This document shows positions 2,530 through 30,008 of a DNA stretch of 30,008 bases, piece after piece. This DNA is from a virus, in IMG/VR virus record IMGVR_UViG_3300017987_000046, positions 1 through 30,008 of that record; one strand, written 5' to 3'. The notes under the pieces are model-generated. The model was not told where the DNA came from. It ran no database searches and saw only the letters and a program-made list of their open reading frames with translations. Every line of letters starts with the position of its first letter. Position 1 is the first letter of the stretch. The translations under genes and the position numbers were made by a program.

Positions 2530-2640
2530 TAGCTACAGCCCCATATCTGTAGACCGAGGGTTTAGCCGTATCAAAAAAACCGCCAAAAAAACTCCCTGGA
2601 GTGCGTAAATATATTGCTGTCATAATAGTTTACTCGAACG

Positions 2641-2674: not shown

Positions 2675-2687
2675 ACTACATAAATGT

Positions 2688-5117: not shown

Positions 5118-5139
5118 TCCTATTGGTCCTACATAGGGT

Positions 5140-6666: not shown

Positions 6667-7291
6667 AAAACGATTTTTAGAAGCACGAGAAATCCGAATT
6701 GAAAAAGTGGACGAAAAGCCACACCTTACCGGTTATGCTCTACCTTTTAATACTCTATCGCAGGATTTTGGTGGATGGCGGGAGCGGTTTATTCCTTCTG
6801 CCTTTGATAATTGGCTTGACGGAAATAATGATATACGGGCAATATCACAACACGATTCCGCCTATCCACTAGCCAGAACAGAAAAGGATACTCTCCAAGT
6901 GTGGACGGATGAAATCGGTCTGCGGTTTGATATGAGTTTGCCGAATACCACATTTGCGCATGATTTAATCGCCAGCATTGAGCATGGCGATATAGAGGGT
7001 ATGTCTATAGGGTTCATTGCCAAAGAGGATCGGTGGACAAGTGAAGGCGGTATTGATATTCGGGAAGTAACCGAAGCGATCCTAGATCATATCTCGCCGG
7101 TTACGAGTCCTGCCTATAAGGCAACAAGTGTAGCGGTTCGATCAAAAGAAGCATACGATGAATTTAAGAAAAGCCAGCAACCGGAAGAGAAACCGGAGAA
7201 AAATGAAACCGAAACGCCTCTATTAAATATGGCAAGCTTAAAGCAAATCCAGAAAGAGGCAGAACATAAACAACCTAGTCCTAATCAATAA
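6656..7291 (+). CDS. Prohead maturation protease (HK97 gp4-like, U35 family)
   Basis: A 211-residue protein with family motifs: LTGYALPFNTLSQDFGGWRE, FDNWL, AISQHDSAYPLART (His66 the likely catalytic His), and GDIEGMSIGF (Ser117 the likely nucleophile). It cleaves the capsid delta domain and itself during maturation. The C-terminal 40 residues are charged and disordered. The start overlaps the portal end by 11 bases. The 3' end probably overlaps the start of the following glycosyltransferase by 26 bases. The capsid gene, normally next, is displaced by two glycosyltransferases. Confidence 0.93.
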   Translation: MEIEKRFLEAREIRIEKVDEKPHLTGYALPFNTLSQDFGGWRERFIPSAFDNWLDGNNDIRAISQHDSAYPLARTEKDTLQVWTDEIGLRFDMSLPNTTFAHDLIASIEHGDIEGMSIGFIAKEDRWTSEGGIDIREVTEAILDHISPVTSPAYKATSVAVRSKEAYDEFKKSQQPEEKPEKNETETPLLNMASLKQIQKEAEHKQPSPNQ

Positions 7292-8168: not shown

Positions 8169-8889
8169 ACGGCAAATCCAGAGTTGGGTGAAGACCACCC
8201 CACACGAAATAATCTATGTGGATGATTGCTGCCCACAGCAATCATATCAGGTAATCAATGAAGCGTGGAAGAAAAAACCCTTTCGGGTTCCCTACCGGAT
8301 TATCAGAAGCAAAAGGAATCTTGGCTTTGGTCAAGCTTGTAATCTTGGAGCGATACGGGCAAGCCACAACGAACACCTTTTGTTTTTGAATGCAGATACA
8401 ATGGTTCAAGCCGGATGGCTTGAACCATTGTTTAATTTAATCGAATCAGACCGGTTTGTAGGAGTGGTGGGAAATTGTCAATTGTTGAATGATACCAATA
8501 TTATTCTATCACTGGGGAGTGAATGGGACGGGGTAGCATTTCGACATATTGGCTTTACTCTTCACAATGGGAAACGATTGCAGCAACCTTACACCCTTTC
8601 TACTTTACCGGATGAATTAAAAAAACCGCAACAGGTCCAAATGGTCAATGCGTGCTGTCTGCTTATCCATCGGGCATTATTCGTTTACCTTAATGGTTTT
8701 GATCGGGGATATAGGATCGGCTATTGGGAAGATGCTGATTTGTGTATGAGGGTCAGAGAATTGGGATTTAAGATTATGGTTCATCCTGATTCGGTTATCC
8801 GCCATTTTCCCGGCCATGCGGGAAAATGGCAACACGAATTTGTAGATGATAATGCTAGATTATTCAGGAGCAGATGGATAGATAAGTAA
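8122..8889 (+). CDS. GT2-family glycosyltransferase
   Basis: A 255-residue GT-A enzyme: LSIVVPLYKSRKQV (2-15), IIYVDDCC (30-37) and RNLGFGQACNLGAIRA (65-80) are the nucleotide-sugar site; FLNADT (88-93, D92) is the DXD equivalent for the metal; YWEDADLCMRVRELGFKI (201-218) carries the usual acceptor-side ED motif. It resembles rhamnosyltransferase-type enzymes; the real sugar is unknown. The ATG at 8122 has AGGAG eight bases upstream, better than the TTG at 8116. It overlaps the GT9-like gene by 47 bases, so the two are co-translated. A hairpin sits at 8398-8431. Confidence 0.9.
   Translation: MLSIVVPLYKSRKQVRRQIQSWVKTTPHEIIYVDDCCPQQSYQVINEAWKKKPFRVPYRIIRSKRNLGFGQACNLGAIRASHNEHLLFLNADTMVQAGWLEPLFNLIESDRFVGVVGNCQLLNDTNIILSLGSEWDGVAFRHIGFTLHNGKRLQQPYTLSTLPDELKKPQQVQMVNACCLLIHRALFVYLNGFDRGYRIGYWEDADLCMRVRELGFKIMVHPDSVIRHFPGHAGKWQHEFVDDNARLFRSRWIDK
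8398..8431. repeat. Intragenic hairpin in GT2 gene
   Basis: A 15-bp perfect stem (8398-8412 with 8417-8431), loop GGAT, directly after the codons for the metal-binding NAD motif. Confidence 0.88.
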
Positions 8890-8923
8890 GGGGTTGGGGA
8901 AACACCTCTTATATTAGGTATAG

Positions 8924-8959
8924 CCCACTTCCCGCCGTTGGCGGGAAGTGGGTTTTTTT
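8924..8959 (+). terminator. Terminator between glycosyltransferases and capsid gene
   Basis: A 13-bp perfect stem (8924-8936 with 8940-8952), loop GTT, then seven T. It isolates capsid expression from the upstream glycosyltransferases and implies a separate capsid promoter in 8960-9060, which I could not pin down. Confidence 0.9.
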
Positions 8960-8968
8960 CATGCGCAA

Positions 8969-9072
8969 ATTTATTGTCTCACTTCTAAATATATTTGGAG
9001 ACCAAATCTTCGGAGCCGTTGCTGACCAGTTGAGTCCCAAACAACTAACTTTAGAAATAGGAGACAATAAAT
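8969..9072 (+). promoter_or_regulatory. Structured 5' leader of the major capsid gene
   Basis: Bases 8969-8980 pair with 9061-9072 (12 bp, reaching into the start codon). A second helix pairs 8983-8989 with 9050-9056 (7 bp). Inside, 8993-8998 pairs with 9002-9007 (loop AGA) and 9028-9032 pairs with 9042-9046. The result is a long closing stem with two inner hairpins. The Shine-Dalgarno AGGAGA (9059-9064) lies partly in the closing stem. This could control translation or protect the mRNA end. Confidence 0.6.
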
Positions 9073-10315
9073 GTCTTGGATCAATAAAAAAGAAAAAGCA
9101 GAACAACGAGCCAAGTTAGTAGAAGATGCTGGCAAGTTGTTAAAGGTGGCTCACTCTGAAAACCGTGAACTTACCAAAGAGGAAAATGAACAATTTGAAA
9201 AGCTGCATCAAGATGCAGACAAATTGTATGATGAAATCAGAACAATCCAAAAACAAGAGAAAGCCGAAAAGTCTTTAGAAGAAAGAATCGGCAAAGAAGA
9301 TGTAGAGACACCGGAGAAGAAAGACGGTGTATCTACCAGAGCATTTAGCAAATGGATTAGGCACGGCAACGAAGGTTTGACACCGGAAGAAAGAACTTCT
9401 TTGAATAACTTTCAATTGGAAATGCGGACAGTTTCCGGTTTGTCTTCCGAGACCGATTCAAGCGGCGGTTACTTCGTGGCTGAAGATTTTGCGAACACCT
9501 ATGTAGAGAAGCTAAAGGCATTTGGCGGTATTCGTGAAGCTGGTGCTACGGTGTTGGTTACCACTACCGGCTCTGACTTACCTGTTCCCAGCTTGGATGA
9601 TACTTCCAATACCGGCGAACTCACGGCCGAAAATTCGGCAGTAACAGACGATAGCACCTATGATCCTACATTTGGTTCTGTCACACTCCAAGCCTATATG
9701 TATGATTCAAAGGTAGTTCGTTGCCCATTACAGCTTCTACAGGATTCAGCATTTCCGGTAGAGTCCTGGCTTGCTGATATGCTGGCTACTCGTATTGGTA
9801 GAATCACCAATACGCATTTCACAACTGGAACAGGATCAGGCCAGGTAAGGGGCGTAGTAACTGCTTCCACTCTTGGAACTACCGCAGCTAGCGCAACGGC
9901 AGTAACGTATAACGAAATCTTGGCTCTGAAACACGCTGTCGATCCTGCCTACAGAGCTACAGCCAAATTTATGTTTAATGATACTACTCTATTGGCTGTG
10001 AAGAAATTGACGGACGGCAACGGTAATCCTTTATGGAATAGAGGCGATGTAAGCAAAGAGCAACCGCCAACTATTGATGGCAATTCTTACGTTATCAATC
10101 AAGATATGGCGGATATTGGATCGGCTGCGAAGCCAATCCTTTATGGTGATTTCTCTTACTATTGGGTAAGGGACGTTTCGGCTGTTCAAATGCTTAGACT
10201 TGTTGAAAGATATGCGGAATATCTGCAAGTTGGTTTCTTGTCATTCAGTAGGCATGACGGCGATTTGGTGAATAGCTCCGCTATCAAATACCTGTTAAAC
10301 GCCACCTCGGCGTAA
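9071..10315 (+). CDS. Major capsid protein, HK97 fold
   Basis: A 414-residue coat precursor. Residues 1 to about 118 form a charged coiled-coil scaffold (delta domain). The coat begins near RTVSGLSSETDSSGGYFVAEDF (119-140), the expected cleavage region for the protease. Later motifs AYMYDSKVVRCPLQLLQDS, FTTGTGSGQVRGVV and YGDFSYYWVRD are typical of the family. It forms the icosahedral shell. The ATG has a strong AGGAGA site, but that site is held in a predicted leader stem. Terminators on both sides (8924-8959 and 10343-10376) make it a separate transcription unit, as expected for the most abundant virion protein. Confidence 0.95.
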   Translation: MSWINKKEKAEQRAKLVEDAGKLLKVAHSENRELTKEENEQFEKLHQDADKLYDEIRTIQKQEKAEKSLEERIGKEDVETPEKKDGVSTRAFSKWIRHGNEGLTPEERTSLNNFQLEMRTVSGLSSETDSSGGYFVAEDFANTYVEKLKAFGGIREAGATVLVTTTGSDLPVPSLDDTSNTGELTAENSAVTDDSTYDPTFGSVTLQAYMYDSKVVRCPLQLLQDSAFPVESWLADMLATRIGRITNTHFTTGTGSGQVRGVVTASTLGTTAASATAVTYNEILALKHAVDPAYRATAKFMFNDTTLLAVKKLTDGNGNPLWNRGDVSKEQPPTIDGNSYVINQDMADIGSAAKPILYGDFSYYWVRDVSAVQMLRLVERYAEYLQVGFLSFSRHDGDLVNSSAIKYLLNATSA

Positions 10316-10342
10316 ATGTATGATGACCTCGTTTTTTTACTG

Positions 10343-10376
10343 CCCTTTTTCCCCTCGCGGGGAAAAAGGGTTTTTT
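10343..10376 (+). terminator. Terminator after the capsid gene
   Basis: A 12-bp perfect stem (10343-10354 with 10359-10370), loop TCGC, followed by six T. Confidence 0.9.
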
Positions 10377-10392
10377 ATTTATACATACAAGT

Positions 10393-10596
10393 ATGAAGAA
10401 ATACAAGTTCATTGAATCAATTGCAAGCCCTACGTGGTCGTATCGTGTTGGGCAAGTTGTGGAAGAAAAGAATATTCCTTCCGACATTCTAGCGATTATC
10501 AAAGGTGGTGGTCTTGCCGTTGAAATAGCAACCGCAGAACCGGAGGTAGAAACAACGGCAAGAAAGAGCAGAAGGAAGAAAGTAAATGGGAACTAA
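10393..10596 (+). CDS. Small hypothetical protein between capsid and connector (67 aa)
   Basis: Basic C-terminus (ARKSRRKKVNGN) after a compact N-terminal part, FIESIASPTWSYRVGQVVEEKNIPSDILAIIKGGGLAVEI. Small proteins with a 'VGQVV...I...GLA' pattern are common directly after HK97 capsid genes and probably help head completion; the exact role is not known to me. The start follows the capsid terminator by 17 bases and lacks a clear Shine-Dalgarno site. It overlaps the connector gene by 11 bases. Confidence 0.75.
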   Translation: MKKYKFIESIASPTWSYRVGQVVEEKNIPSDILAIIKGGGLAVEIATAEPEVETTARKSRRKKVNGN

Positions 10597-11158
10597 TCTA
10601 ATTACTCCACCTACTTTGCTCCCGGTGGAAGTGTGCGAACAAAAGGACCATTGCGGAGTGGATGGAACGGATCAAGATAATCTAATTCAATCCTGCATTA
10701 AAGACGCTACTGACTATGTTCAACGGGCAAGTGGAAGGCAGTTAATGACAGCCACTTACCGCAAATCACTTGATGAATTTCCCGATGAAATCATCCTAGA
10801 CCATCCACCGCTACAGAGCATTACCACAATTACCTATACCGATACAGATGGCGAAAGCCAAACATTAGACGCAAGTGATTATCAGGTTGATACGCATAGC
10901 ATTAAAGGAAAAGTTGTTCCGGCATACGGAACAACTTTTCCGAATACCAGAGCGATCCCTAATGCGGTTCAGGTGACATACGTTTGCGGCTACACAAGCC
11001 GATCTAATGTTCCTGATGCTGCGAAGCGGGCTATCAGGTTTCTTGCAGCGCATTACTTTGAGAACCGGGAAGCGGTAGTTACAGGCACGATTACAAGCAC
11101 CATCCCGCTTGCTGTGGATAGTCTGATTGCCTCCATTTCGATACCGGAGGTGATATGA
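10586..11158 (+). CDS. Head-tail connector, HK97 gp6-like
   Basis: A 190-residue helical adaptor that sits under the portal. Motifs: TPPTLLPVEVCEQ, DNLIQSCIKDATDYVQRASGRQLMTATY, LDHPPLQSITTITY, VQVTYVCGY and VPDAAKRAIRFLAAHYFENRE. These match the gp6/gp15 connector family in order and length. It overlaps the previous gene by 11 bases and the next by four (ATGA). A perfect 15-bp hairpin lies inside at 10907-10941. Confidence 0.9.
   Translation: MGTNLITPPTLLPVEVCEQKDHCGVDGTDQDNLIQSCIKDATDYVQRASGRQLMTATYRKSLDEFPDEIILDHPPLQSITTITYTDTDGESQTLDASDYQVDTHSIKGKVVPAYGTTFPNTRAIPNAVQVTYVCGYTSRSNVPDAAKRAIRFLAAHYFENREAVVTGTITSTIPLAVDSLIASISIPEVI
10907..10941. repeat. Intragenic hairpin in connector gene
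   Basis: A 15-bp perfect stem (10907-10921 with 10927-10941) with a 5-base loop. Unlike most others here, the purine-rich arm comes first. Confidence 0.88.
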
Positions 11159-11475
11159 GGGCGGGAAGGTTACGGCATAGAGTGATTATCCAAGAGCCTA
11201 CAGCAGGCACACCGGATGCGTTCAATGAGTCCACCGATACGTGGTCAACTTTCGCAACGGTGTGGGCAGAAGTAAAACCTTTGAACGCAAACGAGAATAT
11301 CAGGAATGAACAGGTGGTTATGGATGCTACGCACATCATTACTATTCGCCACCTGTCCGGCATTACTCCCGATATGCGTATCAGCTTTGACAGCAGGACA
11401 TTTAATATTTCGTCAATTATCAATGTTTTTGAACGGAACAAAGAAATACAATTGGTCTGTAAAGAGGAAGTATGA
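11155..11475 (+). CDS. Head-tail joining (adaptor) protein
   Basis: A 106-residue protein starting MRAGRLRHRVIIQEPT, the hallmark opening of SPP1 gp16/HK97 stopper-type joining proteins (Phage_H_T_join). It continues with WSTFATVWAEVKPL and HIITIRHLSGITPDMRISF. It closes the connector channel and links head to tail. ATGA overlap with the connector and four-base overlap with the following gene indicate tight coupling. Confidence 0.92.
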   Translation: MRAGRLRHRVIIQEPTAGTPDAFNESTDTWSTFATVWAEVKPLNANENIRNEQVVMDATHIITIRHLSGITPDMRISFDSRTFNISSIINVFERNKEIQLVCKEEV

Positions 11476-11915
11476 TTGACATTAAGGTAAAAGGGCAAAG
11501 AAGATTACTGCGGAAGTTTAATCGGTTGCCTAGTCGGGTTCAAAAAAGAGTGCTGCGCCAAGCGGTGAAGGCGGCAGGAAAACCGGTAATCAAAGCAGCA
11601 AGAGCCAAATGCCCAACCGAAAGCAAGCTGTTAAAGAAATCAATCGGTAGCAAGGTCAAGGTGTATCGGACTAGTGGAACCATAGTTTTAATAATTGGAC
11701 CCAGAACGAATTATTCTGGCGAATTTGAGGGGAAGAAAAGAAATCCGAAAAATTATGCTCATTTGGTGCATGATGGCTTTACAACACGAGACGGCAGATT
11801 TGTTAAGGGAACCCCCTTTCTAAAGGCGGCCCACAAAGAGCAAAAGAATCAGGCAATCGCCATAATGAAAACGAAGTTGAGGGACGGAGTAACCAAAGCT
11901 TGGAAGGAAAGATAA
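11472..11915 (+). CDS. Tail-completion protein, HK97 gp10-like
   Basis: A 147-residue basic protein: IDIKVKGQRRLLRKFNRLPSRVQKRVLRQAVKAAGKPV, then ARAKCPTESKLLKKSI and HLVHDGFTTRDGRFVKGTPFLKAAH. The late YAHLVHDG and GTPFLKAA motifs are diagnostic of the HK97 gp10 family that terminates the tail tube. It lies in the usual order between the joining protein and the DUF3168-like protein. Confidence 0.92.
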   Translation: MIDIKVKGQRRLLRKFNRLPSRVQKRVLRQAVKAAGKPVIKAARAKCPTESKLLKKSIGSKVKVYRTSGTIVLIIGPRTNYSGEFEGKKRNPKNYAHLVHDGFTTRDGRFVKGTPFLKAAHKEQKNQAIAIMKTKLRDGVTKAWKER

Positions 11916-11922
11916 ATACAGC

Positions 11923-12333
11923 ATGATTAAAAAGGGGCTTATTACATTACTAGAAGCAGATAACGACATTACCACGATTGTCTCTACTCGCATCTATGTA
12001 GATCGAATACCGCAAAGCGGCTCTTCTCCTTGTGTGGTCTTATCCACGAGCGGAACCGAAAGAGTCTGGAGCAATGACGGACCCACCGGCATTCCCACAG
12101 CTTCAATAGAAATTGATTGCTTTTCTGAAACGTATTTACAAGCAATCACCATTGCCGATGAAATCCGGCTTTGTTTGGACGGCTACACCGGATCGGTAGG
12201 AAGCCAGACTATTCACGCTTGCTTTTTAGAAAATCAGGTTGACCTATCCGACAACGTGGAACCTGGAACGGATATAGCCGTCTACCGGATACGTCTTTCT
12301 TTTGCCGTCCATTTCGTGGAAGCCACTTCATAA
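11923..12333 (+). CDS. Tail terminator-like protein (DUF3168)
   Basis: A 136-residue protein with the DUF3168 pattern: MIKKGLITLLEADNDITTIV, RIYVDRIPQSGSSPCVVLS, TASIEIDCFSETYLQAITIADEIRLCLDGY, and a final IAVYRIRLSFAVHF strand. These proteins resemble lambda gpU-type tail terminators. The gap to the upstream gene is seven bases and the ATG at 11923 has no strong Shine-Dalgarno site, so coupling to the upstream gene is likely. Confidence 0.88.
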   Translation: MIKKGLITLLEADNDITTIVSTRIYVDRIPQSGSSPCVVLSTSGTERVWSNDGPTGIPTASIEIDCFSETYLQAITIADEIRLCLDGYTGSVGSQTIHACFLENQVDLSDNVEPGTDIAVYRIRLSFAVHFVEATS

Positions 12334-12343
12334 AAATTCATCC

Positions 12344-12383
12344 TACCTCACTAAATAGAGTAGACCATTTATTTAGTGAGGTA
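12344..12383 (+). promoter_or_regulatory. Hairpin enclosing the ribosome-binding site of the tail tube gene
   Basis: A perfect 13-bp stem (12344-12356 with 12371-12383) with a 14-base loop ends five bases before the ATG at 12389. The only Shine-Dalgarno match, TGAGG at 12377-12381, is inside the right arm, so the fold would hide it. The stem is A/T-rich and has no T run right after it, so it is not a good terminator. Confidence 0.7.
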
Positions 12384-12388
12384 TTTTA

Positions 12389-12799
12389 ATGGCTTCTGAC
12401 GGAATGAAAGGATTTGGAACAACGATCAAATATGCGGCTGTGGGAGTCACCCCAGACACTTTAATCGCCCAAGTGATGGACGTTTCTGGTCCTAGTATAG
12501 CGGTAGATGATGTAGAAATAACGAACAATGACTCACCTTCTGAATACAAAGAATATGTCCCCGGCTTGAAAGACGGCGGGGAAGTTAGCTTTGACATTAT
12601 CTATGAAGAGAGTCAATGTAGCACTCTATACGGCCTAGTAGGCACAAAAAAGGATTGGAGAATTACAAAGCCAGATAATAGTTATATTGGTTTTACTGGC
12701 TACATCAAGGGATTAGGGGACGAAACCCCTATGAATGATGCTGTGAAGAACAGCATTACAATTAAAATAACCGGCGCTCCAACCTTTACTAGTGCGTAA
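12389..12799 (+). CDS. Major tail tube protein
   Basis: A 136-residue protein with the order expected of siphovirus tube proteins: MKGFGTTIKYAAVGVTPDTLIAQVMDVSGPSIAVDDVEITNNDSP, then LKDGGEVSFDIIYEES, YIGFTGYIKGLGDETPMNDAVKNSITIKITGAPTF. The 'DVEITN' and 'NDAVKNSITIKITG' parts are typical of lambda gpV-N/HK97 tube proteins. It polymerises as hexameric rings around the tape measure. It sits between tail completion and chaperone genes and its Shine-Dalgarno site is inside a hairpin. Confidence 0.9.
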   Translation: MASDGMKGFGTTIKYAAVGVTPDTLIAQVMDVSGPSIAVDDVEITNNDSPSEYKEYVPGLKDGGEVSFDIIYEESQCSTLYGLVGTKKDWRITKPDNSYIGFTGYIKGLGDETPMNDAVKNSITIKITGAPTFTSA

Positions 12800-12801
12800 T
12801 T

Positions 12802-13164
12802 ATGGCGTTAAAAGATAAGATTCTCAATTGTGATGATTTGAAAAAAGAAACACTCCGCATAGATCAATGGGGTGTCTCTGTTGTGGTCCGTGAATTGAAC
12901 GCTAAAGAGCGGTCATGGGTTTTTGAAATCCTGGAAAAATACAAGAATGACCCGCTTGCGATCAAAGAAATGGATGCAAAGGTAGCTATCAAATGCCTCT
13001 TGGATGAAGAGGGTTCACCGGTCTTTGAGGAAAAAGACCTTCCCGAACTACTCAAGAAATCCGGTCAAGTTATCTCTGATGTTCTTGACGTTGTTTGGCG
13101 CTTGTCTGGGTTTGACGATAAAAAAAAAGACTCACCACAGAGCAACGATTCAAATTTAGATTAG
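12802..13164 (+). CDS. Tail assembly chaperone, short form (gpG analogue)
   Basis: A 120-residue protein directly after the tube gene, starting MALKDKILNCDDLKKETLRIDQWGVSVVVRELNAKERSWVFEI, which matches tail chaperone N-domains. It binds the tape measure and recruits tube subunits during tail assembly and is absent from the virion in known systems. Its last 11 residues are read beyond a run of nine A (13120-13128), where a fraction of ribosomes are expected to shift to -1 and make the long form. Confidence 0.88.
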   Translation: MALKDKILNCDDLKKETLRIDQWGVSVVVRELNAKERSWVFEILEKYKNDPLAIKEMDAKVAIKCLLDEEGSPVFEEKDLPELLKKSGQVISDVLDVVWRLSGFDDKKKDSPQSNDSNLD

Positions 13165-13442
13165 CTCGTGTTCTCAAAATGACCGTTGCCGAATTGGATA
13201 ACCGGATGGGATCAAGCGAGTATCAGCAATGGATGGAGTATCTCTCCGCAGAACCTACCTTAGAAGAGAGAACCGATATTCAAGCAGCTACAATCGCTAC
13301 AGCAATATACCGAAGTGTCGGGGCAAAGGTGGACATAAATAAATTCCTTCCACGATATGAGACAGACGGCTTAGATCGGGAATATCCAACACAAGAGGAA
13401 CTAAGCGATAAGCTGGAAAACATATTTGGTAAGTTTAATTAA
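12802..13442 (+). CDS. Tail assembly chaperone, long form by -1 frameshift (gpGT analogue)
   Basis: The zero frame is read from 12802 to 13128 (109 codons). A -1 slip on A AAA AAA at 13122-13128 continues as RLTTEQRFKFRLARVLKMTV, AELDNRMGSSEYQQWMEYLS to the stop at 13442, giving about 213 residues. The second part is the canonical gpT-like domain and has no good independent start: the only nearby ATG (13179) lies inside the conserved region and lacks a Shine-Dalgarno site. The long form connects tape measure and tube in other siphoviruses. Confidence 0.85.
13122..13128 (+). other. Programmed -1 ribosomal frameshift site
   Basis: The slippery heptamer A AAA AAA is in the correct phase for a -1 shift and is followed by G, within an uninterrupted run of nine A. 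The -1 frame is open from here to 13442. A different recoding (such as -2 or +1) would not reach that frame. Confidence 0.85.
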
Positions 13443-13474
13443 GCCCCTTTTCGCCTTTAGGCGAAAAGGGGCTT
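13441..13474 (+). terminator. Hairpin after tail chaperone genes
   Basis: A 15-bp perfect stem (13441-13455 with 13460-13474), loop TTTA, beginning in the chaperone stop codon. The following stretch is only moderately T-rich (TTCTCTCTTCT), so termination may be partial. Confidence 0.75.
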
Positions 13475-13492
13475 CTCTCTTCTATATACCTT

Positions 13493-15367
13493 ATGGCATC
13501 AATCGCAAATTTATCAGTTATCTTAACAGCGAATACCACAAAGTTTTCAAACGCTTTTAAGAAGCAAACGAAAACGATAAACCTTTTCGGCTCCTCCGTT
13601 TCTTCTCTTGTTACAAGGTTGGCAAGCATTACCGGTGCAATCAAACTTGGGCAAATGGTCCACGAAGTAGATACAGCAATGCATTCATCCCTGGCAATCA
13701 TGGGAGACGTATCGGAGCAAATGAAGACCCAAATGATTGGGGTGGCAAATGAAATCGCTAAGGGAACACGATACAGCACCGCAGAAGCAGCGAAAGCATA
13801 TTACTACTTGGCATCGGCTGGTCTATCGGCGGCACAATCAATCAAGTCTCTTTCAACGGTAGCCACCTTTGCACAAGCGGGTATGTTCGACCTTTCAACG
13901 GCAACGGACCTTCTCACAGATACCCAAATGGCTATGGGTTTGGCATCGAAAGATACCTATGAAAATCTTTGGAGAATGAAACGTGTGGGCGATGTTTTGG
14001 TGAAAGCCAACGTCTTATCAAATGCAAGTGTTCAACAATTCTCGGAATCATTGACCAACAAGGCCGCCGCATCGGCGGTTAGATTCGGGCAGAGTATTGA
14101 ACAAGCAACCGCAGTTTTAGCGGCCTTTGCTTCACGGGGTATTAAAGGAGCCGATGCAGGAACACAATACGATATTATCCTTCGCAACCTTTCAATTAAG
14201 GCAAACGAAAATGCAGTGGCATTTAAGGCGGCGGGTGTAGAAGTTTATGATTCGGCAGGCAAGTTCCGTTTCTTGGGTGATATTGTTGCCGACTTAGAAC
14301 AATCATTAGAAGGTCTAAGCGACCAACAGAAGGTAAGCCAGTTAATGGCTATGGGATTTACTGCTAAAACCATTTCCTCAACAAGCGCTCTTATGGGTAT
14401 GTCCGGTGCAATAACGGATTACCATAATAAATTGCAGGATGCTAAGGGGACAATGGAAGAGGTATCAGAAAAGCAATTGCCGGAAATTACCAAAGGATGG
14501 GAGCGGCTGAAAGCGGCAGCTACCGAAACCGGAGGCATTCTGAATAACACGCTAAATGCTATGGGGCAGGTAATGACCATTGCCGGTCAAGTGTTGGGCG
14601 GCGGTCCAAAGTCTTTGGGATCATTGACCTCTTTGAGAAAAGAAGAAAAGCAGAAAGCGAAAGAACTATTTGAGAAGGGATTAAAACCGGAAGAGGTGGC
14701 GAAGGAGTTGGGTCTTCCGATAAAAGAAATTGCGGGGCAGCTACGCACGATATGGGATAAGGTTGATGTTAAAAAAGCACCTGAACCACCAAAGGCGTTA
14801 ATATCGGAAGACGTAATTAGCAATTTGGAGCAAGCTGAAAAGAAGATTGATAGCGTGAAATCAAAAGTCTATACGCTCACGGATGTATTAAATGGATTTG
14901 GTGTGTCAAATGACAAGCTAAGCCGGTTGGGTGATATTGGAAAACGATTTATGGAAGGTGCTGCGGATGCCTACACAAAAGCAAAAGAAAAGCAAAACGA
15001 ACATAATAAACTGATGGAACATTATCAGGACAGGGCAAAGAGAATATTCGACCAAACCCGAACACCACTTGAAAAGTTCAATTCCACAATGGACGAGTTG
15101 AATAACTTGCTGCAAATGGGTGAAATTTCTTGGGACACATACGGCAGAGCAAAGAAAGCAGCATTAGAACAATTAGATGCGGGTGGTCCGACCGGTGGTC
15201 CGCAAATGTTGGAAGCAGGTAGCGCCGCGGCACAAAGGTTTGTGTATATGCAGCAAAGAGGCGGCAATACCGTAGAAGATCGGCAGTTATCGGTCCAACA
15301 GGAAATAGCCACAAATACACTAACAATAGCAACAAGATTAAAAAGTTCTGAATACGATCTAGATTAA
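13493..15367 (+). CDS. Tail tape measure protein
   Basis: A 624-residue protein with a TP901-type tape measure core: VHEVDTAMHSSLAIMGDVS, ANEIAKGTRYSTAEAAKAYYYLASAGLSAAQS, LLTDTQMAMGL, VGDVLVKANVLSNASVQQFSESL and AAFASRGIKGADAGTQYD. The C-terminal half is a charged coiled coil. Its length sets tail length; at about 1.5 angstrom per residue this predicts a tail near 90 nm. It follows the chaperone pair, as usual. No peptidase or lysozyme domain is visible, unlike some larger tape measures. The start has no clear Shine-Dalgarno site. Confidence 0.93.
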   Translation: MASIANLSVILTANTTKFSNAFKKQTKTINLFGSSVSSLVTRLASITGAIKLGQMVHEVDTAMHSSLAIMGDVSEQMKTQMIGVANEIAKGTRYSTAEAAKAYYYLASAGLSAAQSIKSLSTVATFAQAGMFDLSTATDLLTDTQMAMGLASKDTYENLWRMKRVGDVLVKANVLSNASVQQFSESLTNKAAASAVRFGQSIEQATAVLAAFASRGIKGADAGTQYDIILRNLSIKANENAVAFKAAGVEVYDSAGKFRFLGDIVADLEQSLEGLSDQQKVSQLMAMGFTAKTISSTSALMGMSGAITDYHNKLQDAKGTMEEVSEKQLPEITKGWERLKAAATETGGILNNTLNAMGQVMTIAGQVLGGGPKSLGSLTSLRKEEKQKAKELFEKGLKPEEVAKELGLPIKEIAGQLRTIWDKVDVKKAPEPPKALISEDVISNLEQAEKKIDSVKSKVYTLTDVLNGFGVSNDKLSRLGDIGKRFMEGAADAYTKAKEKQNEHNKLMEHYQDRAKRIFDQTRTPLEKFNSTMDELNNLLQMGEISWDTYGRAKKAALEQLDAGGPTGGPQMLEAGSAAAQRFVYMQQRGGNTVEDRQLSVQQEIATNTLTIATRLKSSEYDLD

Positions 15368-15375
15368 GGGGGCTT

Positions 15376-16218
15376 ATGGCGGTTACCAGTGTAAATGAAC
15401 GCTTCCAAAGCAGGAGCAGCAATCACACAGCAGAAGAGGCGACACACACAAGGGTTTTTATTGTTCAATGTAATTCCGTATCCGATGGAACAGCCACAGC
15501 AATTAACGCTGTGGGTGTTCCCGCTCTGGGTGATGTACATGATATAGACGTAGATGCTTACGCAAAATCCAAATCTTGTCAACCTTTGGATTCTCAAAAG
15601 TATGTCTTCATTGTAAACGTGGAATATTCGGATGAGTATTTTGACTCGCCATTGAACAAACCTACCGAAATTACCTGGAGCAGTAGCGAAGCAACAGAAC
15701 AAATGTTTGAGGATTTGAGCGATCCGGTTGAACGTGTTCTCAACTCAGCGGGTGAGCCTTTCGACCAATTGGTCGAAAGGGATAGTTCGGAGTTGATGGC
15801 TACGGTGGTTAGAAATCAAGCCACGTTTGATACAAATGTTTTTAGTTATGTGAATACGATCAACGATGACGATTTCACATTAGACGCACAGACAATACCG
15901 AAAGGATGCGCCAAGATGGGACCAATTTCCATTTCTCCGTGGAAGCAAGAGCATGGAATAGATTACAGGATATATACGTATCCAATCAAGTTCAAAGCAG
16001 GCACGGACCCCTGGAAAAAAAGGGTGTTGGATTATGGCTATGAAGAGTTAGACGGAGAAGGGGGACGAAAGCCAATCGTGAATCAAGATGGAATCAAGGT
16101 CAAAAAACCGTGGCCTTTGGATCACGGATCAGCAAAAGAAAACGCAACGGATGAACCCGCAGAATTAGAATTTGTCGCCTATGAGGAAAAAGACTTTTCA
16201 GTTTTTAGTTTTACTTAA
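15376..16218 (+). CDS. Putative distal tail/baseplate protein (280 aa)
   Basis: Placed directly after the tape measure, where siphoviruses encode the distal tail protein. The sequence starts MAVTSVNERFQSRSSNHTAEEATHTRVFIVQCN, has a middle part reading FDSPLNKPTEITWSSSEATEQ, and a C-terminal half reading IDYRIYTYPIKFKAGTDPWKKRVLDYGYEEL. I recall similar proteins of unknown name after tape measures in planctomycete-type prophages; a Dit-like role is inferred from position. A good Shine-Dalgarno site (AAGGGGG) lies just before the ATG. It contains a 24-base perfect palindrome at 15757-15780. Confidence 0.7.
   Translation: MAVTSVNERFQSRSSNHTAEEATHTRVFIVQCNSVSDGTATAINAVGVPALGDVHDIDVDAYAKSKSCQPLDSQKYVFIVNVEYSDEYFDSPLNKPTEITWSSSEATEQMFEDLSDPVERVLNSAGEPFDQLVERDSSELMATVVRNQATFDTNVFSYVNTINDDDFTLDAQTIPKGCAKMGPISISPWKQEHGIDYRIYTYPIKFKAGTDPWKKRVLDYGYEELDGEGGRKPIVNQDGIKVKKPWPLDHGSAKENATDEPAELEFVAYEEKDFSVFSFT
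15757..15780. repeat. Intragenic palindrome in distal-tail candidate
   Basis: A 24-base perfect palindrome: 10-bp arms around AATT. Confidence 0.88.
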
Positions 16219-17810
16219 TGGGATACTCGAAAGAAGCCAGAACAAAAATATCAAATGTTGTAAAACGTGTAGATGGAATGCCATACACTACGGCTGGAGG
16301 TTTGCTTTCAGACGGAAAAGGAAATGAAGAGCCAACACTGTGGGCAAAGATTACAAGCCCTCCAAATAGCGAAGGAGACTATTGCTGGAAGAAACAAATC
16401 CCCGATGGTGATGGTGGTTTTGAGGATGACCCCGCCGATATAACAGGCAAAAGAAATGCAAGGGAAGTGAACGATTATAGAGGGGCAAAAGATTACATTG
16501 TTCGCCTCTATTCAATTGGATATGACGGCAACGGCGATCAAAGATGGGTGTTTAATTTTTGTTGTGAGGATGAATCAAGTTCTTCCCCTAGCAGTCCTTC
16601 GAGTCCAAGCAGCCCTAGCAGCCCTAGCAGTCCTTCGAGTCCAAGCAGCCCTAGCAGCCCTAGCAGTCCTTCGAGTCCAAGCAGCCCTAGCAGTCCTTCG
16701 AGTCCAAGCAGCCCTAGCAGTCCTTCGAGTCCAAGCAGCCCTAGCAGTCCTTCGGAATCTTCACCAAGCGAAAGCAGCCCCTCTGAATCTTCACCCTCTG
16801 AGGGTTCGCCCTCTCCGTCTGTGTCCGGTTCACCTTCAGCACCCTCTGAATCAGAATCAGAAGAGACAACAAGCATAGTAGTTGTCTCAAGCATTGCCTG
16901 TGCTGATGGCACCTTGACCGCTACTCGAATCAGTTTGAATTTTCAAAATGGTCTATTTGTCGGAAGTTCTGCGGCGGGAGAACAAACCTGTGATATGTGC
17001 GATTGCAGCGCTAGTAGCGGCGGTTGCCCGCCACCATTTTGGGAAGGGCTACAAGCCCTTCCCAAAATGGGAACAAAGAAAATAGATGTGGTTATACCAT
17101 TAGGCGTTCAATCGGCATGGGGCAGCAATGAGGAGTTACGATATTGCTTGCGTTCGCTAGAAAAATACTTTGTTGATTTGGGTAACGTCTATATCGTAAC
17201 CGACACACCACCGGAATGGATAAGCGGTCAAGTAATTGTAATTGAATTGGGCGATAAACACAAAAGAAATAAAGACGCAAATCTAATCGACAAAGTATTA
17301 TTGGCTTGCAAGCAACCGCAAATCTCCGATCCATTTGTACGGGGTGCTGATGATTATCTTCTGTTGAAACCGGTAGGAATAAATAATATCCTGCCCACCT
17401 ACACAAAAGCATTAGATGGAAATGCGGGAGGAAGTAGAAATAATAAATGGTATCGCAGATTAAACAACACCTACCATTTCGTCAAGGAACAAGGTTGTAA
17501 AAATCCAAAGAACTTTGACACTCATTCTTTCGCACCTGTGCGAAAGAATGAGTTTATTCAAATTGTCGAAAAAGCAGATTATGCGAAAACAGGAATGTGT
17601 ATCAATTCGCTTTATTACAATTTGTCCGATCAACACGCAATGCCGCTAGAAAGTAAGGTGTCATTGACCCAACCTATCCATGACGTGGAACAGATTAGAC
17701 ATTTATTCAAAAACCACACGTTCTTAAATACAAACGGCAAAGGTTTGACTCTTGCAGCCAAGCAAGTAATTCAAGAGTTCCTACCGGAAAAAAGCAGGTT
17801 TGAAATATGA
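16218..17810 (+). CDS. Tail protein fused to a Stealth-like sugar-phosphate transferase domain
   Basis: A 530-residue multidomain protein. Residues 1-117: structural N-domain (MGYSKEARTKISNVVKRVDG to WVFNFCC). 124-179: Ser-Pro-Ser repeats. 180-215: Ser/Glu/Pro-rich. 216-275: beta domain (TTSIVVVSSIACADGTLTAT) with a Cys-rich end (CDMCDC). 284-530: KKIDVVIPLGVQSAWGSNEELRYCLRSLEKYF, VYIVTDTPPEW and DPFVRGADDYLLLKPV match conserved regions 1 and 2 of Stealth-type proteins, which transfer hexose-1-phosphate in capsule synthesis. No stop separates the halves; a 17-bp hairpin (17034-17070) marks the boundary and its right arm contains an in-frame ATG (17067, M284), a possible internal start. The start overlaps the previous stop; no Shine-Dalgarno site is seen. 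Confidence 0.8.
   Translation: MGYSKEARTKISNVVKRVDGMPYTTAGGLLSDGKGNEEPTLWAKITSPPNSEGDYCWKKQIPDGDGGFEDDPADITGKRNAREVNDYRGAKDYIVRLYSIGYDGNGDQRWVFNFCCEDESSSSPSSPSSPSSPSSPSSPSSPSSPSSPSSPSSPSSPSSPSSPSSPSSPSSPSSPSSPSESSPSESSPSESSPSEGSPSPSVSGSPSAPSESESEETTSIVVVSSIACADGTLTATRISLNFQNGLFVGSSAAGEQTCDMCDCSASSGGCPPPFWEGLQALPKMGTKKIDVVIPLGVQSAWGSNEELRYCLRSLEKYFVDLGNVYIVTDTPPEWISGQVIVIELGDKHKRNKDANLIDKVLLACKQPQISDPFVRGADDYLLLKPVGINNILPTYTKALDGNAGGSRNNKWYRRLNNTYHFVKEQGCKNPKNFDTHSFAPVRKNEFIQIVEKADYAKTGMCINSLYYNLSDQHAMPLESKVSLTQPIHDVEQIRHLFKNHTFLNTNGKGLTLAAKQVIQEFLPEKSRFEI
16587..16754 (+). repeat. 27-bp tandem repeats coding (Ser-Ser-Pro)n
   Basis: Five full 27-bp units (16587-16613, 16623-16649, 16659-16685, 16686-16712, 16713-16739), with 9-bp part-units between the first three and a truncated unit at the end. 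All keep frame, so gain or loss of units changes linker length only. Confidence 0.88.
17034..17070. repeat. Hairpin at the fusion boundary of the tail/transferase gene
   Basis: A 17-bp perfect stem (17034-17050 with 17054-17070), loop ACA. It lies between the Cys-rich end of the tail domain and the first strand of the transferase domain; the right arm contains ATG. Confidence 0.9.
17520..17553. repeat. Intragenic hairpin in the transferase domain
   Basis: A perfect inverted repeat of 16 bp (17520-17535 with 17538-17553) with only two central bases, so about 15 bp when folded. Confidence 0.87.
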
Positions 17811-18490
17811 TTACCATCGGGACGGGATGGAGCCATAAGACCTACAGACAAATCGGAACCTACACCGCAGAAATAAACGAAGCATACGCAAAGGAAAACG
17901 GCTACAGCTTCGTTTCCTTTTCGCCTTACAAATCGGTGTGGAGTCCGAGGGTTCCACAAATGACCGAATACCAGCGACACATGGAAAAGGTAGCACTATG
18001 TCTTAAACACCTGCCAGATTGCAAGTGGATGGTCTGGATAGATGCTGATGCGTGCTTTATCGCCAACGGCATAGAAGAATACCTTGACGATCAGTATTAC
18101 TTAATCCTGCAAAGCGGTGAAAAACAATCAAGATTTGTGAATACCGGTCTATTCTTCCTTCGCAATTGCCAACAAAGCTTTGACCTGTTGGACGAAATGA
18201 ATGATGTCTCTTTACCCGAATTGGCAAAATGGCAGCAGAGACACCGCAAGCGCTGGAAGGATCAAAGCGCCTACTATGTCGCATTAAGCAAGAAGCCAAA
18301 CCTACAAACTGGAATTAAGAAGCACAAGTATGGTAAGTTGTGGTCCAGACCAGAACACTTAAATCATTTTTCGCCTGTGGCAATTCATGCCAACAGGCGA
18401 AAAAGATCCCGGACACTACCACGTAGATTAAGAACATTAAGGGAAGCAATTGAAAGAACAGACCAAAGCAGCGCATCGGAGATTGAATGA
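17807..18490 (+). CDS. GT34-like glycosyltransferase
   Basis: A 227-residue GT-A enzyme resembling galactosyl/mannosyltransferases of the GMA12/MNN10 group. It opens MITIGTGWSHKTYRQIGTYTAEINEAYAKENGYSF, followed by MEKVALCLKHLPDCKWMVWIDADACFIANGIEEYL, where DADA is the metal-binding DXD motif, and FVNTGLFFLRNCQQS. The basic C-terminal tail is unlike the rest. The start overlaps the previous stop (ATGA). The gene overlaps the downstream methyltransferase by 41 bases if that gene starts at 18450. It contains a hairpin at 18367-18404. Confidence 0.87.
   Translation: MITIGTGWSHKTYRQIGTYTAEINEAYAKENGYSFVSFSPYKSVWSPRVPQMTEYQRHMEKVALCLKHLPDCKWMVWIDADACFIANGIEEYLDDQYYLILQSGEKQSRFVNTGLFFLRNCQQSFDLLDEMNDVSLPELAKWQQRHRKRWKDQSAYYVALSKKPNLQTGIKKHKYGKLWSRPEHLNHFSPVAIHANRRKRSRTLPRRLRTLREAIERTDQSSASEIE
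18367..18404. repeat. Intragenic hairpin in GT34-like gene
   Basis: A 12-bp stem (18367-18378 with 18393-18404) continued by 4 bp after a one-base bulge, closing a 5-base loop. Confidence 0.82.
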
Positions 18491-19025
18491 TAATCTATTT
18501 CACACCCGGTATTTTATCGGCAAAGGTATTGATGTAGGTGGCAAACCCGATCCATTAGGACAATATGTTTTTGTGTTTGCTGGTATGGAATCATGCGATA
18601 CATGGGATTTAGAACAGGGAGACGGGCAATATTTAACAGGTATTCCTGATTGCTCCTATGATTTCCTTCATTCTTCTCATTGCTTGGAACACTTGAAAAA
18701 TCCTGAGATAGCTTTAGAGAATTGGATCAGGGTGGTGAAGCCAAATGGTTTTTTGATTATAACCGTTCCAGATGAGGATATGTATGAATTTCCAAAGTTC
18801 AAACGATTCAACAAAAAGCACCGGTGGTCTTTTACGATTTACAAGAAACAAAGTTGGTGCGCCAAGTCAATAAATATATTGGATTTGGTCGTAAGGTTTT
18901 CAGACTTGATCGAACCCGAGAGAATTAGTTTAATTCGGGATTTCTACAATCCAAAAAAGAAGACCGATCAGACAAGAGGCAATGCCGAATGTGCAATTGA
19001 ATTTATATGGCGGCGAAAGAAATAA
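18450..19025 (+). CDS. SAM-dependent methyltransferase (class I)
   Basis: A 191-residue protein with the Methyltransf_11-like order: FIGKGIDVGGKPDP near residue 25 (motif I, SAM binding), WDLEQGDGQYLTGIPDCSYDFLHSSHCLEHLKNP (motifs II-IV), IRVVKPNGFLIITVPDED (post-motif strand). In a glycosyltransferase cluster the likely acceptor is a sugar hydroxyl. No ATG is available near the N-terminus; TTG at 18450, with AAGGGA five bases upstream, is the best start. A TTG at 18483 is an alternative. It overlaps the following gene by 19 bases. Confidence 0.85.
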   Translation: MKEQTKAAHRRLNDNLFHTRYFIGKGIDVGGKPDPLGQYVFVFAGMESCDTWDLEQGDGQYLTGIPDCSYDFLHSSHCLEHLKNPEIALENWIRVVKPNGFLIITVPDEDMYEFPKFKRFNKKHRWSFTIYKKQSWCAKSINILDLVVRFSDLIEPERISLIRDFYNPKKKTDQTRGNAECAIEFIWRRKK

Positions 19026-19756
19026 TCTTTGCCGGTCCCTGGATCGGTGAATTTGGATGGGAATTGTTTTGCTGGCAATCTTACTTACGTAAGATTGCCA
19101 GCCAATACGATGTTATTGTTTCTTCTCGACAAGATAGAGAATACCTTTATCGTGATTTCTGCAAGGAGTTCTTTCCCTTTATCGTGAATGGTAGACCCGA
19201 TGCTTGGAAATGTCGAGGATTCAGACAAAAAGAATTAAGGGCTGAATTATGGAGGTCATTTTCTGATTGTCAAATTATAAAACCGCAAAAAATGAAAGGT
19301 CCACAACTCCACCGGAAATATGGTCAAGCCAATCCTGCTTTGAAATACGATTATTTGATTCATGCCAGGAGCAGGAACCACCGCAAAGAAGCGAATTGGT
19401 CTATTAAGAATTGGATGAAATTAGTTAAACGTCTGAAAGGTAGGATTGCCAGTGTTGGGAGTAGCGGGCAAAGCTTCCTTGTTCCCGGAACGAAAGACTT
19501 GCGGGGAATTGAACTTGAGAATCTGGCTAACATTTGCGCCAGTAGCCGTTTAATACTTGGACCTAGTAGCGGACCTCTTCATTTTGCGGCTCTATGTGGG
19601 TGTCCTGTGCTTGCTTGGAGCGGATTGCATAGGAGCAAGAGAAGGTATCTCCGATCCTGGAACCCGTTTCAGGCACCTGCATATTGCTACAATGATGAAG
19701 GATGGACCCCATCGGTTGAAAAGGTGTTGCAAATTGTGGAGACAATGCAGCTATGA
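19007..19756 (+). CDS. GT9-like glycosyltransferase (second)
   Basis: A 249-residue GT-B protein. IFAGPWIGEFGWELFCWQSYLRKIA is the N-terminal strand-loop; YDYLIHARSRNHRKEANW opens the C-domain; LENLANICASSRLILGPSSGPLHFAALCGCPVLAWSG is the nucleotide-binding signature of heptosyltransferase-like enzymes (GPSSGPLHFAA). It is short for the family, so the acceptor domain is compact. Donor and acceptor are unknown. ATG at 19007 overlaps the methyltransferase end. The stop overlaps the sulfotransferase start by four bases. A hairpin sits at 19071-19102. Confidence 0.87.
   Translation: MAAKEIIFAGPWIGEFGWELFCWQSYLRKIASQYDVIVSSRQDREYLYRDFCKEFFPFIVNGRPDAWKCRGFRQKELRAELWRSFSDCQIIKPQKMKGPQLHRKYGQANPALKYDYLIHARSRNHRKEANWSIKNWMKLVKRLKGRIASVGSSGQSFLVPGTKDLRGIELENLANICASSRLILGPSSGPLHFAALCGCPVLAWSGLHRSKRRYLRSWNPFQAPAYCYNDEGWTPSVEKVLQIVETMQL
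19071..19102. repeat. Intragenic hairpin in second GT9-like gene
   Basis: A 14-bp perfect stem (19071-19084 with 19089-19102), loop TTAC. Confidence 0.87.
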
Positions 19757-20265
19757 AAATCTTTTGTATCGGAATGAACAAGACCGGAACCACAAGTCTT
19801 CATTCTGCATTTTTCTATCTTGGATATCGTTCAATTCATAATCGGAGACGAGCAAGTAGAAGAATTAAAAGAGCGATTCAAAAAGGTAAGCCGCTACTGA
19901 CCTACCTGAATAATTACGACACCTATACCGATGATCCCTTCTACAGATTTTTTGTGACTCTGGATTTGGAGAATCCTGGCAGTAAATTTATTTTGAACGT
20001 GCGAAAAAAAAGAAGCTGGATCAAATCACGAATAAGACACTGCAAAAGGAAAAGGAAGCCAAGAGACATAGCAACCCAAAAGCTCTGGGTCAAGCAAAGA
20101 GCCGAACATCACGCCAAAGTGTTTGAATATTTCGCAGACAGACCAGATGATTTACTGGTTCTCAATATTTGTAGTGGTGACGGATGGGATAAGCTATGTC
20201 CCTTTTTGGACAAGCCGATACCGGAGATACCTTTCCCGTGGCGTAATAAATCAAGACGTAGGTGA
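19753..20265 (+). CDS. Sulfotransferase family protein
   Basis: A 170-residue protein opening MKIFCIGMNKTGTTSLHSAF; GMNKTGTTSL (7-16) is the 5'-phosphosulfate-binding loop of PAPS-dependent sulfotransferases. RFFVTLDLENPGSKFILNVRKKRSWIKS gives the second conserved region, with the 3'-phosphate-binding Arg/Ser element. It is shorter than most (about 200-250). It should move a sulfuryl group from PAPS to a glycan hydroxyl; PAPS must come from the host. The ATGA overlap with the upstream glycosyltransferase shows co-translation. It runs tail-to-tail into the minus-strand GT2 gene, overlapping it by 15 bases. Confidence 0.88.
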   Translation: MKIFCIGMNKTGTTSLHSAFFYLGYRSIHNRRRASRRIKRAIQKGKPLLTYLNNYDTYTDDPFYRFFVTLDLENPGSKFILNVRKKRSWIKSRIRHCKRKRKPRDIATQKLWVKQRAEHHAKVFEYFADRPDDLLVLNICSGDGWDKLCPFLDKPIPEIPFPWRNKSRRR

Positions 20266-21015
20266 ATTAAAATATTCTTCTATCTCTTTTGTATCTAATC
20301 CTAATTCTTTCCAGCCGATCAAATAGTTTCTGTAGGTGTCTTTTGTTTTTGGGACGGGTCCACTCCGACCGAACCGGTGTAGATACCGGAGGAACGGCAA
20401 ACAAAGAACCTTTCTTCCCGCTTGTCTCCACTTGTGGTGGATATACCCCTCTTCGCCGCCGAAACCCCGAAAGGCAGGATTAAGACCCAGCCAAGCATCC
20501 CGCCGACAGGACCACAGCCCCATGCCCGCCGCATGTATCTCAAAGGGTAGCCCGTCTGGATCGGCTCCACGTTGATCGGCTCCCCACTCACCATACATAC
20601 GCTTGCTGCCCCATCCCGGCTCCAAATGCGTGGAGTAGGCCGTCATATCGTCCGATACCAGTACCCCATGCAATAGATTAGGGGTGGTCGGATTGGACCC
20701 GTAGTAATCAACCAGCTTGGCAATTGCTTCTGGAGCGATCAAGACGTGAGAATCAACGATTAGGACGTAGGGTGTGGTGGCATGACGATAGACCTGTTCC
20801 CTTACACTTGTTCCGATCTTATCGGTATATGGGACATACTTTGCCCCGATTGATCGAATAAACTCACGGGTTCTTTTTCCCTGTCTCGTGTTGGGCGAAT
20901 TATCTATTACAATGATTTCGGGTTGAATTTCAGGATGGTAAAAACGTATTGCCTCAATTGTAAAAAACACCCCCGAATAATCATTAAAAACCGCCATCCC
21001 TATTGTAATGTTTAT
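20251..21015 (-). CDS. GT2-family glycosyltransferase, apparent ATA start
   Basis: The sequence INITIGMAVFNDYSGVFFTIEAIRFYHPE, then IIVIDNSPN and YVLIVDSHVLIAPEAIAKL (DSH in the DXD position) and HAAGMGLWSCRRDAWLGLNPAFRGFGGEEGYIHHKWRQAGRKV identify a GT-A/GT2 enzyme. The family normally starts with M-x-(I/V)-T-I-G-M-A. At 21015-21013 the codon in that place is ATA, overlapping the TAA of the upstream gene as ATAA. The open frame runs further up to a TTG at 21081 with no Shine-Dalgarno site; the first ATG (GMAVF) lies inside the first strand. I set the start at ATA (254 aa). It is the only cassette gene on the minus strand, so it may be expressed with the early genes. Confidence 0.75.
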   Translation of the reverse strand: MNITIGMAVFNDYSGVFFTIEAIRFYHPEIQPEIIVIDNSPNTRQGKRTREFIRSIGAKYVPYTDKIGTSVREQVYRHATTPYVLIVDSHVLIAPEAIAKLVDYYGSNPTTPNLLHGVLVSDDMTAYSTHLEPGWGSKRMYGEWGADQRGADPDGLPFEIHAAGMGLWSCRRDAWLGLNPAFRGFGGEEGYIHHKWRQAGRKVLCLPFLRYLHRFGRSGPVPKTKDTYRNYLIGWKELGLDTKEIEEYFNSPTS

Positions 21016-21269
21016 TGTCTCGGATCCCCTAATTCGCACAACTCCAAATCGTGTATATCGCAACAATGTGCTAATGCCCAACGAATTGCTAGCGGCATAT
21101 GACTATCAATATTCACACATAATTGATTGTCGTGCAACTCAACAGCCAAGTCGCCACACTTGCAATAATAGCTTACAAGACTCTCGTTATCTATTGCTGG
21201 CATTGGTTCGTAATCGCTTAAGATTTGATGCAAATCGGTTAATATAGATACTAGTTGTTTTTGGTTCAT
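21012..21269 (-). CDS. Small hypothetical protein (85 aa)
   Basis: I do not recognise the family. It begins MNQKQLVSILTDLHQILSDYEPMPAIDNESLV and contains Cys-rich parts (YYCKCGDLAVELHDNQLCVNID, AHCCDIHDLELCELGD). The ATG at 21269 has AAAGGA seven bases upstream, so the longer open frame to 21572 is not used. It is divergent from the small plus-strand gene at 21325. A TATAAT-like box lies upstream on this strand. Its stop overlaps the apparent start of the GT2 gene. Confidence 0.7.
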   Translation of the reverse strand: MNQKQLVSILTDLHQILSDYEPMPAIDNESLVSYYCKCGDLAVELHDNQLCVNIDSHMPLAIRWALAHCCDIHDLELCELGDPRQ

Positions 21270-28817: not shown

Positions 28818-28859
28818 AAAACCCCCCTTCCCGCCGTTGGCGGGAAGGGGGGTTTTTTT
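28818..28859 (+). terminator. Terminator after the serine recombinase
   Basis: An 18-bp perfect stem (28818-28835 with 28839-28856) with loop GTT and a run of seven T. It is the longest perfect stem in the window, and its AAAA flank makes it effective on the opposite strand too, where a convergent gene ends at 28883. Confidence 0.92.

Positions 28860-29207: not shown

Positions 29208-30008
<801 letters not shown>

Follow-up and report, generated by a model that had tools for sequence, protein, structure and literature searches.

The stretch of DNA analysed here (the window) is a whole virus record of 30,008 nucleotides, IMGVR_UViG_3300017987_000046. It encodes the head genes of a phage (terminase to capsid, with connectors), a major tail protein, a tape measure protein and an integrase of the large serine type, which suggests that the phage is temperate. 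Eight sugar-active enzymes, which by their coordinates total ~5.5 kb of the 30 kb (~18% of the record), are encoded at two sites in the structural region, around 7317-8889 and at 17067-~21039. These genes are, on balance, probably an accessory module for glycosylation of the virion itself, with the tail as the likeliest target. The features on which this reading draws are as follows.

7317-8168, plus strand: GT9-like glycosyltransferase (GT-9a), inserted between the prohead protease and the major capsid protein (Pfam PF01075, E 2e-4, just below the cut-off)
8116-8889, plus strand: GT2 glycosyltransferase (Pfam PF00535, E 1e-17; GALNT4 in the PDB, E 1.3e-11)
16218-16562, plus strand: N-terminal domain (residues 1-115) of a tail-module protein (32% identity to the N-terminus of a 254-residue protein of the related phage L156)
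16563-16900 (end approximate), plus strand: Ser/Pro-rich linker (SPSSPSSPS...), a possible O-glycan acceptor (sequence; scan for Ser/Thr tracts)
17067-17810, plus strand: Stealth-CR2-like transferase domain, which follows the linker as an in-frame fusion (PF11380, E 4.3e-7, below the cut-off; phrog_7999, E 5e-21)
17807-18490, plus strand: GT34 glycosyltransferase with a DxD motif, WIDADA (PF05637, E 1.5e-7)
18450-19025, plus strand: methyltransferase dependent on S-adenosylmethionine (SAM), with a TTG start after AAGGGAAG (PF08241, E 3e-9)
19007-19756, plus strand: GT9-fold glycosyltransferase (GT-9b, WIGEFGWE family; AlphaFold2 model, Foldseek, Z 17.3 to 3tov and WaaF)
19753-20265, plus strand: Sulfotransfer_4 sulfotransferase dependent on 3'-phosphoadenosine 5'-phosphosulfate (PAPS), with K10-T-G-T-T-S15, D60, R84 and S92 (PF17784, E 2.2e-28; model)
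20251-21039, minus strand: convergent GT2 with a DSH motif (PF00535, E 1.5e-7; proposed GTG start at 21039 after GGAG; TTG at 21081 in the list of open reading frames)
29211-30008, plus strand: collagen-like tail fibre in which almost every triplet contains Thr, a possible second O-glycan acceptor (phrog_6320 tail fiber, E 1e-37)

The initial annotation of this locus had described a cassette of four overlapping plus-strand genes that meet a convergent GT2 gene and form, with a Stealth-like domain and two enzymes ahead of the capsid gene, a glycan module taking up a large share of the genome. All five cassette genes are present as open reading frames, and those for the GT34 enzyme, the methyltransferase, Sulfotransfer_4 and GT2 score above the Pfam cut-off. 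The two glycosyltransferase (GT) genes before the capsid gene were likewise found, the share of the genome is as large as was claimed, and the grouping of the genes as one glycan module holds up. From the tail-module gene at 16218-17810 through the sulfotransferase gene, successive genes overlap by 4, 41, 19 and 4 bp, and the sulfotransferase gene overlaps the minus-strand GT2 gene by 15 bp. A second, near-identical viral contig (L015) has 1 mismatch in 16,714 bp and covers positions 2493-19206 of the window, so that two records support the sequence as far as the initial portion of the GT9-like gene at 19007-19756; the remainder of that gene from 19206, the sulfotransferase gene and the minus-strand GT2 gene are supported by a single record. 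The codon usage of the cassette genes is within or near the range of the core genes except for the minus-strand GT2 gene, which is ~2.4 standard deviations lower, and recent acquisition as read from codon usage was rejected on this basis. No transmembrane segment, flippase, polymerase or nucleotide-sugar gene was apparent in the cassette from the sequence, Pfam or a check for membrane segments, and the lack of membrane segments supports a cytosolic location of the enzymes.

The sulfotransferase (170 residues) scores 100 bits against PF17784, for which the curated cut-off is 22.8. Its P-loop, K10-T-G-T-T-S15, and the 3'-phosphate residues R84 and S92 line up with those of solved enzymes in a profile alignment. 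In the same type of alignment D60 corresponds to the catalytic Asp of SmSULT, Asp91, a number obtained by counting with a two-residue tag assumed; crystal structures show this Asp in a hydrogen bond with the acceptor hydroxyl (PMC4618941). Seven viral relatives align with the window protein over its full length, and in the eight viral sequences D60, R84 and S92 are invariant, the GDGWDKLC block is kept and the P-loop is mostly K/R-T-G-T-x-S. The predicted structure (mean predicted local distance difference test score, pLDDT, 88.2) matches SgdX2 with a Z of 17.1, Cpz8 with bound 3'-phosphoadenosine 5'-phosphate with 16.5 and schistosome sulfotransferases with ~15, and the next family, the tyrosylprotein sulfotransferases (TPST), follows at 11.5, well under the Sulfotransfer_4 matches. 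Loss of the PAPS site, named in the initial annotation as an outcome that would count against its proposal, was checked by structural modelling, and the site is kept. By sequence and predicted fold the protein is a genuine sulfotransferase, in which the active site and PAPS site are predicted to be intact.

The same annotation held sulfation genes to be rare in phages, a statement to be taken with caution. Three different queries from the window sulfotransferase family gave no tblastn match among 50,697 phage records, but relatives are encoded at 12 viral-contig loci, some of them mutual duplicates, and sulfotransferases in virome contigs have been reported before (PMC10829341, PMC8290583, PMC12285232). 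They have likewise been described from genomes of OM43 phage relatives, with a function that the authors of that study regard as unclear (PMC10580990). A Sulfotransfer_4 gene and a GT9-like gene co-occurred in 0 of 42 records, a test in which no control genome gave a signal either. Sulfotransfer_2 was found in three viral records, in one of which (L004) it adjoins a Sulfotransfer_4 gene. As a separate observation, L003 (527-kb viral contig, G044) has four Sulfotransfer_2 matches and one Sulfotransfer_4 gene in one record.

Among the cassette GTs, the GT34 gene scores 31.9 bits against PF05637 (cut-off 23) and has the DxD motif, as expected of a member of that family; its match among solved structures is xyloglucan xylosyltransferase 5 (E 1.8e-4). 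The class I methyltransferase (~180-190 residues) scores 37.8 bits against PF08241 (Methyltransf_11; cut-off 21.2). The GT9-like call for 19007-19756 stands at the level of fold and not of sequence, as the gene reaches 13.6 bits (E 0.04) against PF01075 (Glyco_transf_9), below the cut-off of 22, and the product is named here a GT9-fold protein and not a member of the GT9 family for that reason. Twenty-four viral relatives, 32-42% identical and carrying the WIGEFGWE motif, align with it. Its AlphaFold2 model (pLDDT 88.9) has the GT-B fold of GT9: the Foldseek top matches are TibC (best by E-value), the GT9 protein 3tov and WaaC, and the Z to 3tov and WaaF extends over 222-230 residues, with the next groups mostly at 10-11 and a plant NDH subunit at 13.7. 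TibC is a protein-serine heptosyltransferase which puts heptose on autotransporter serines, and protein O-glycosylation is therefore plausible for the GT9 fold of 19007-19756. For the GT2 at 8116-8889, most of the solved structures closest in sequence are polypeptide N-acetylgalactosamine (GalNAc) transferases, and there is a weak GtrB-like PHROG match (E 3e-4). The minus-strand GT2 scores above the cut-off for PF00535 (Glycos_transf_2) and gave no sequence match in the PDB.

The gene at 16218-17810 encodes, in one frame, a tail-module N-terminal domain, a Ser-Pro linker and the Stealth-like domain. Of the Stealth regions CR1-CR4, CR2 alone was matched, at 30.5 bits against a cut-off of 39.4, and the label 'Stealth' was dropped on these grounds; the CR2-like match and membership of phrog_7999 are what remains of the initial call. 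Relatives of the domain stand alone in Mycobacterium and Gordonia phages, and in Mycobacterium phages such as Boilgate the domain lies by itself directly before the terminase gene. A perfect 17-bp hairpin at 17034-17070 is found exactly at the junction of the tail-like and Stealth-like parts, where it spans the internal ATG (17067) of the Stealth-like half.

A sister phage, L156, was located through a short hairpin sequence common to several window hairpins (exact core CTTCCCGCCGTTGGCGGGAAG). The content and order of the head genes in L156 match those of the window, and its integrase is 30% identical. In the tail position it encodes a protein of 254 residues, of which only the first ~115 are shared with the product of 16218-17810, and its protease gene directly precedes the capsid gene with no genes between. 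No Ser linker, GT, cassette or other glycan gene was recognised in L156, an 18.9-kb record that may be a fragment. By this comparison the window seems to have gained its glycan genes by insertion at two sites, and the linker and transferase look like a replaced C-terminus. The tail module of L156 (6807-13045) and its head module are encoded on different strands, which is not the case in the window. In another relative, L161, the gene before the tail-module end protein is 24% identical to its window counterpart; the tail module there ends with a protein bearing a run of ~18 Thr, followed by a 620-residue protein whose GT2 domain has polypeptide GalNAc-transferases as its nearest solved sequences, as is the case for 8116-8889. 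When the GT34 gene, the Stealth-like domain and the N-terminal domain were used as queries, the near-identical L015 contig was the only one returned. A capsid-profile scan of genome contigs yielded only distant relatives (the best 80 are 30-35% identical, mainly prophages of Bacillota and Spirochaetes), and none of these capsid relatives shares the glycan genes. The initial annotation had proposed a search for the same gene set in other phages; the full combination was seen in no other record, and no report of the combined set was found in the open-access literature.

Both types of GT9 gene recur together in seven viral contigs, in which a gene of the 19007 type is followed by a large gene containing a domain of the 7317 type. 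Ser/Thr-rich linkers were found in large reading frames of five of these seven contigs, as against 0 of 18 contigs with the 19007 type only and 0 of 18 capsid relatives (Fisher p 0.0004, or 0.003 if the four clear cases are counted). In four of the five the linkers are long poly-Ser or Ser-rich repeats and in one a short Ser-rich stretch, in all five a few genes away. The window has both GT9 types as well as the Ser-Pro linker and the Thr-rich fibre, whose longest repeat run has 42 Thr in 43 triplets. In L063 (11204-14044), L066 (11234-14707) and L064 (11581-14259), phage reading frames that adjoin GT genes contain very long poly-Ser tracts, built of SSSSSSSSI repeats and extending over hundreds of residues.

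Of the roles put forward in the initial annotation, which were decoration of the virion, alteration of the host surface and mimicry of a host glycan, virion decoration fits best because the genes run on from the tail module, a tail-module protein carries one of the GT domains as a fusion, and GT9-type relatives adjoin Ser-rich tail-module proteins; alteration of the host surface is left without a membrane component and mimicry without support. For decoration of the virion we infer an order of steps, sugars, an acceptor and a benefit as follows. The enzymes would be made late, with the tail genes, and one or more of the GTs would start an O-linked sugar on Ser or Thr residues of the linker in 16218-17810, of the Thr-rich collagen-like fibre, or of both. 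The remaining GTs would extend the sugar, which the methyltransferase and the sulfotransferase would cap from host SAM and host PAPS. Fusion would keep one transferase beside its acceptor. The finished glycan would serve to adjust adsorption, or to protect the tail against proteases or other attack. A more specific proposal, put forward only tentatively, is that some such phages carry a mucin-like sulfated and methylated O-glycan on the Ser/Thr linkers of their tails and that the fused transferase of some tail-module proteins glycosylates its own linker.

Several points weigh against decoration of the virion. Judging by titles and by PMC4618941, the Sulfotransfer_4 enzymes with structures act on small molecules, so it is the neighbouring genes alone that point to a sugar as the acceptor of the window enzyme. 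The likeness of the GT2 at 8116-8889 to GalNAc-transferases may be general GT2 similarity. The linker test was chosen after the data had been seen, and the seven paired contigs represent about four related lineages, which makes the association a lead and not proof; moreover, the two GT9-like genes of the window are 11 kb apart, unlike those of the paired contigs. The integrase suggests a temperate phage, and in such phages a change of the host surface is also common.

That last point leads to a different assignment, in which the enzymes put a methylated, sulfated sugar on a surface polysaccharide or lipid-linked precursor of the lysogen and thereby exclude other phages or hide a receptor. GT2 and GT9 enzymes often take part in the making of surface polysaccharides, and cytosolic GTs can act on host lipid-linked precursors. 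However, the cassette has no transmembrane protein, flippase, polymerase or Gtr-like membrane transferase, its genes continue the tail module instead of lying near the integrase, and one transferase is fused to a tail-module protein, so a host-surface role is considered rather unlikely. Less likely still is a role in taking over the host, in which proteins or small molecules of the infected cell would be the targets and the sulfotransferase, like Cpz8 and SmSULT, would have a small-molecule substrate. Such a role would agree with the substrates of the nearest solved sulfotransferase relatives and with the cytosolic appearance of the enzymes, but it does not account for the fusion to a tail-module protein, for the Ser-rich linkers near paired GT9 genes or for the position in the late region. 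The short length of several domains, among them the sulfotransferase and the methyltransferase, could indicate a horizontally acquired and partly decayed cluster of little function. All frames are open, though, active-site residues are kept, codon usage resembles that of the core genes for all but one gene, and the L015 copy differs by one base over the shared part, which makes a relic very improbable. Modification of phage DNA bases by the GTs and the sulfotransferase, a function suggested for such genes in general (PMC10829341), is the most improbable of these alternatives, as no base-hydroxylation, thymidylate-synthase-like or nucleotide-kinase gene was recognised among the profiled window genes.

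Two features of the record as a whole stand apart from these questions. The frame of the collagen-like fibre runs off both record ends, as 29211-30008 and a matching open frame at 2-634, and for this reason the record was probably cut inside the collagen-like repeat; a direct join of the two ends would not keep them in one frame. The broken frame suggests a genome that is circularly permuted, or a circular one opened in the repeat. The window also has 26 perfect hairpins (stem at least 11, loop at most 12) versus 0 in three Markov shuffles, with 15 of the 26 located inside genes; examples are at 2785-2819, 4550-4578, 6437-6469, 17034-17070, 17520-17553, 19071-19102 and 28818-28856. Left arms tend to be C/T-rich and right arms G/A-rich. 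At a stem of at least 12 the density is 0.8/kb, about four times that of any unrelated locus compared (at most 0.18/kb, median 0). L156 is hairpin-dense as well, with 13 in 18.9 kb, some inside genes (776-804 in terS; 3494-3523 and 3991-4020 in the portal gene), and the density may be characteristic of this lineage or of the host that it infects.

Sulfotransferases in viral contigs and glycosylation of phage virions are both already known. Virome surveys list the sulfotransferases as 'auxiliary metabolic genes' and state that their role is unclear (PMC10580990). The locus described here offers such an enzyme a concrete and testable setting, with GTs in the tail module, candidate acceptor linkers adjoining, and the whole absent from a sister phage. 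If the proposed function is true, genes of this kind would move from host metabolism to virion decoration, and phages would have sulfated virion glycans. Ser/Thr-rich tail linkers beside paired GT9-type genes provide a simple predictor that can be tested across viral contigs.

Several parts of the module have likenesses among known systems. BclA is a collagen-like exosporium glycoprotein with GT genes, Thr-rich G-X-Y repeats and methylated sugars; the Thr-rich repeats and the GT genes are alike in the window, whereas BclA belongs to a bacterial spore coat and the window fibre is known from genes alone. The autotransporter heptosyltransferases of GT9 (TibC/BAHT) have the GT9 fold in common with the phage enzyme, which is smaller (249 residues) and ~12-16% identical in sequence. 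Cpz8, SgdX2 and the schistosome SULT-OR share with the phage sulfotransferase the fold, the P-loop, the 3'-phosphate site and the catalytic Asp; they are small-molecule enzymes, whereas the phage protein is shorter and located among GTs. With Stealth proteins the window domain has a CR2-like region in common, the only region matched and below the cut-off, and it differs in being fused to a tail-module protein. O-antigen conversion (gtr) cassettes are characterised by a membrane flippase and a membrane transferase, neither of which is found in the window cassette. Virion glycosylation is established in the mycobacteriophages Che8, Corndog and Myrna, according to the accounts of Freeman et al. 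(2023) in PMC12363180 and PMC11256854. As described in those accounts the modification involves GTs only, to which the window adds a methyltransferase, a sulfotransferase and a tail-fused transferase, known from genes alone; phage-encoded GTs modify capsid and tail-tube proteins in these phages, and the window likewise has phage GT genes.

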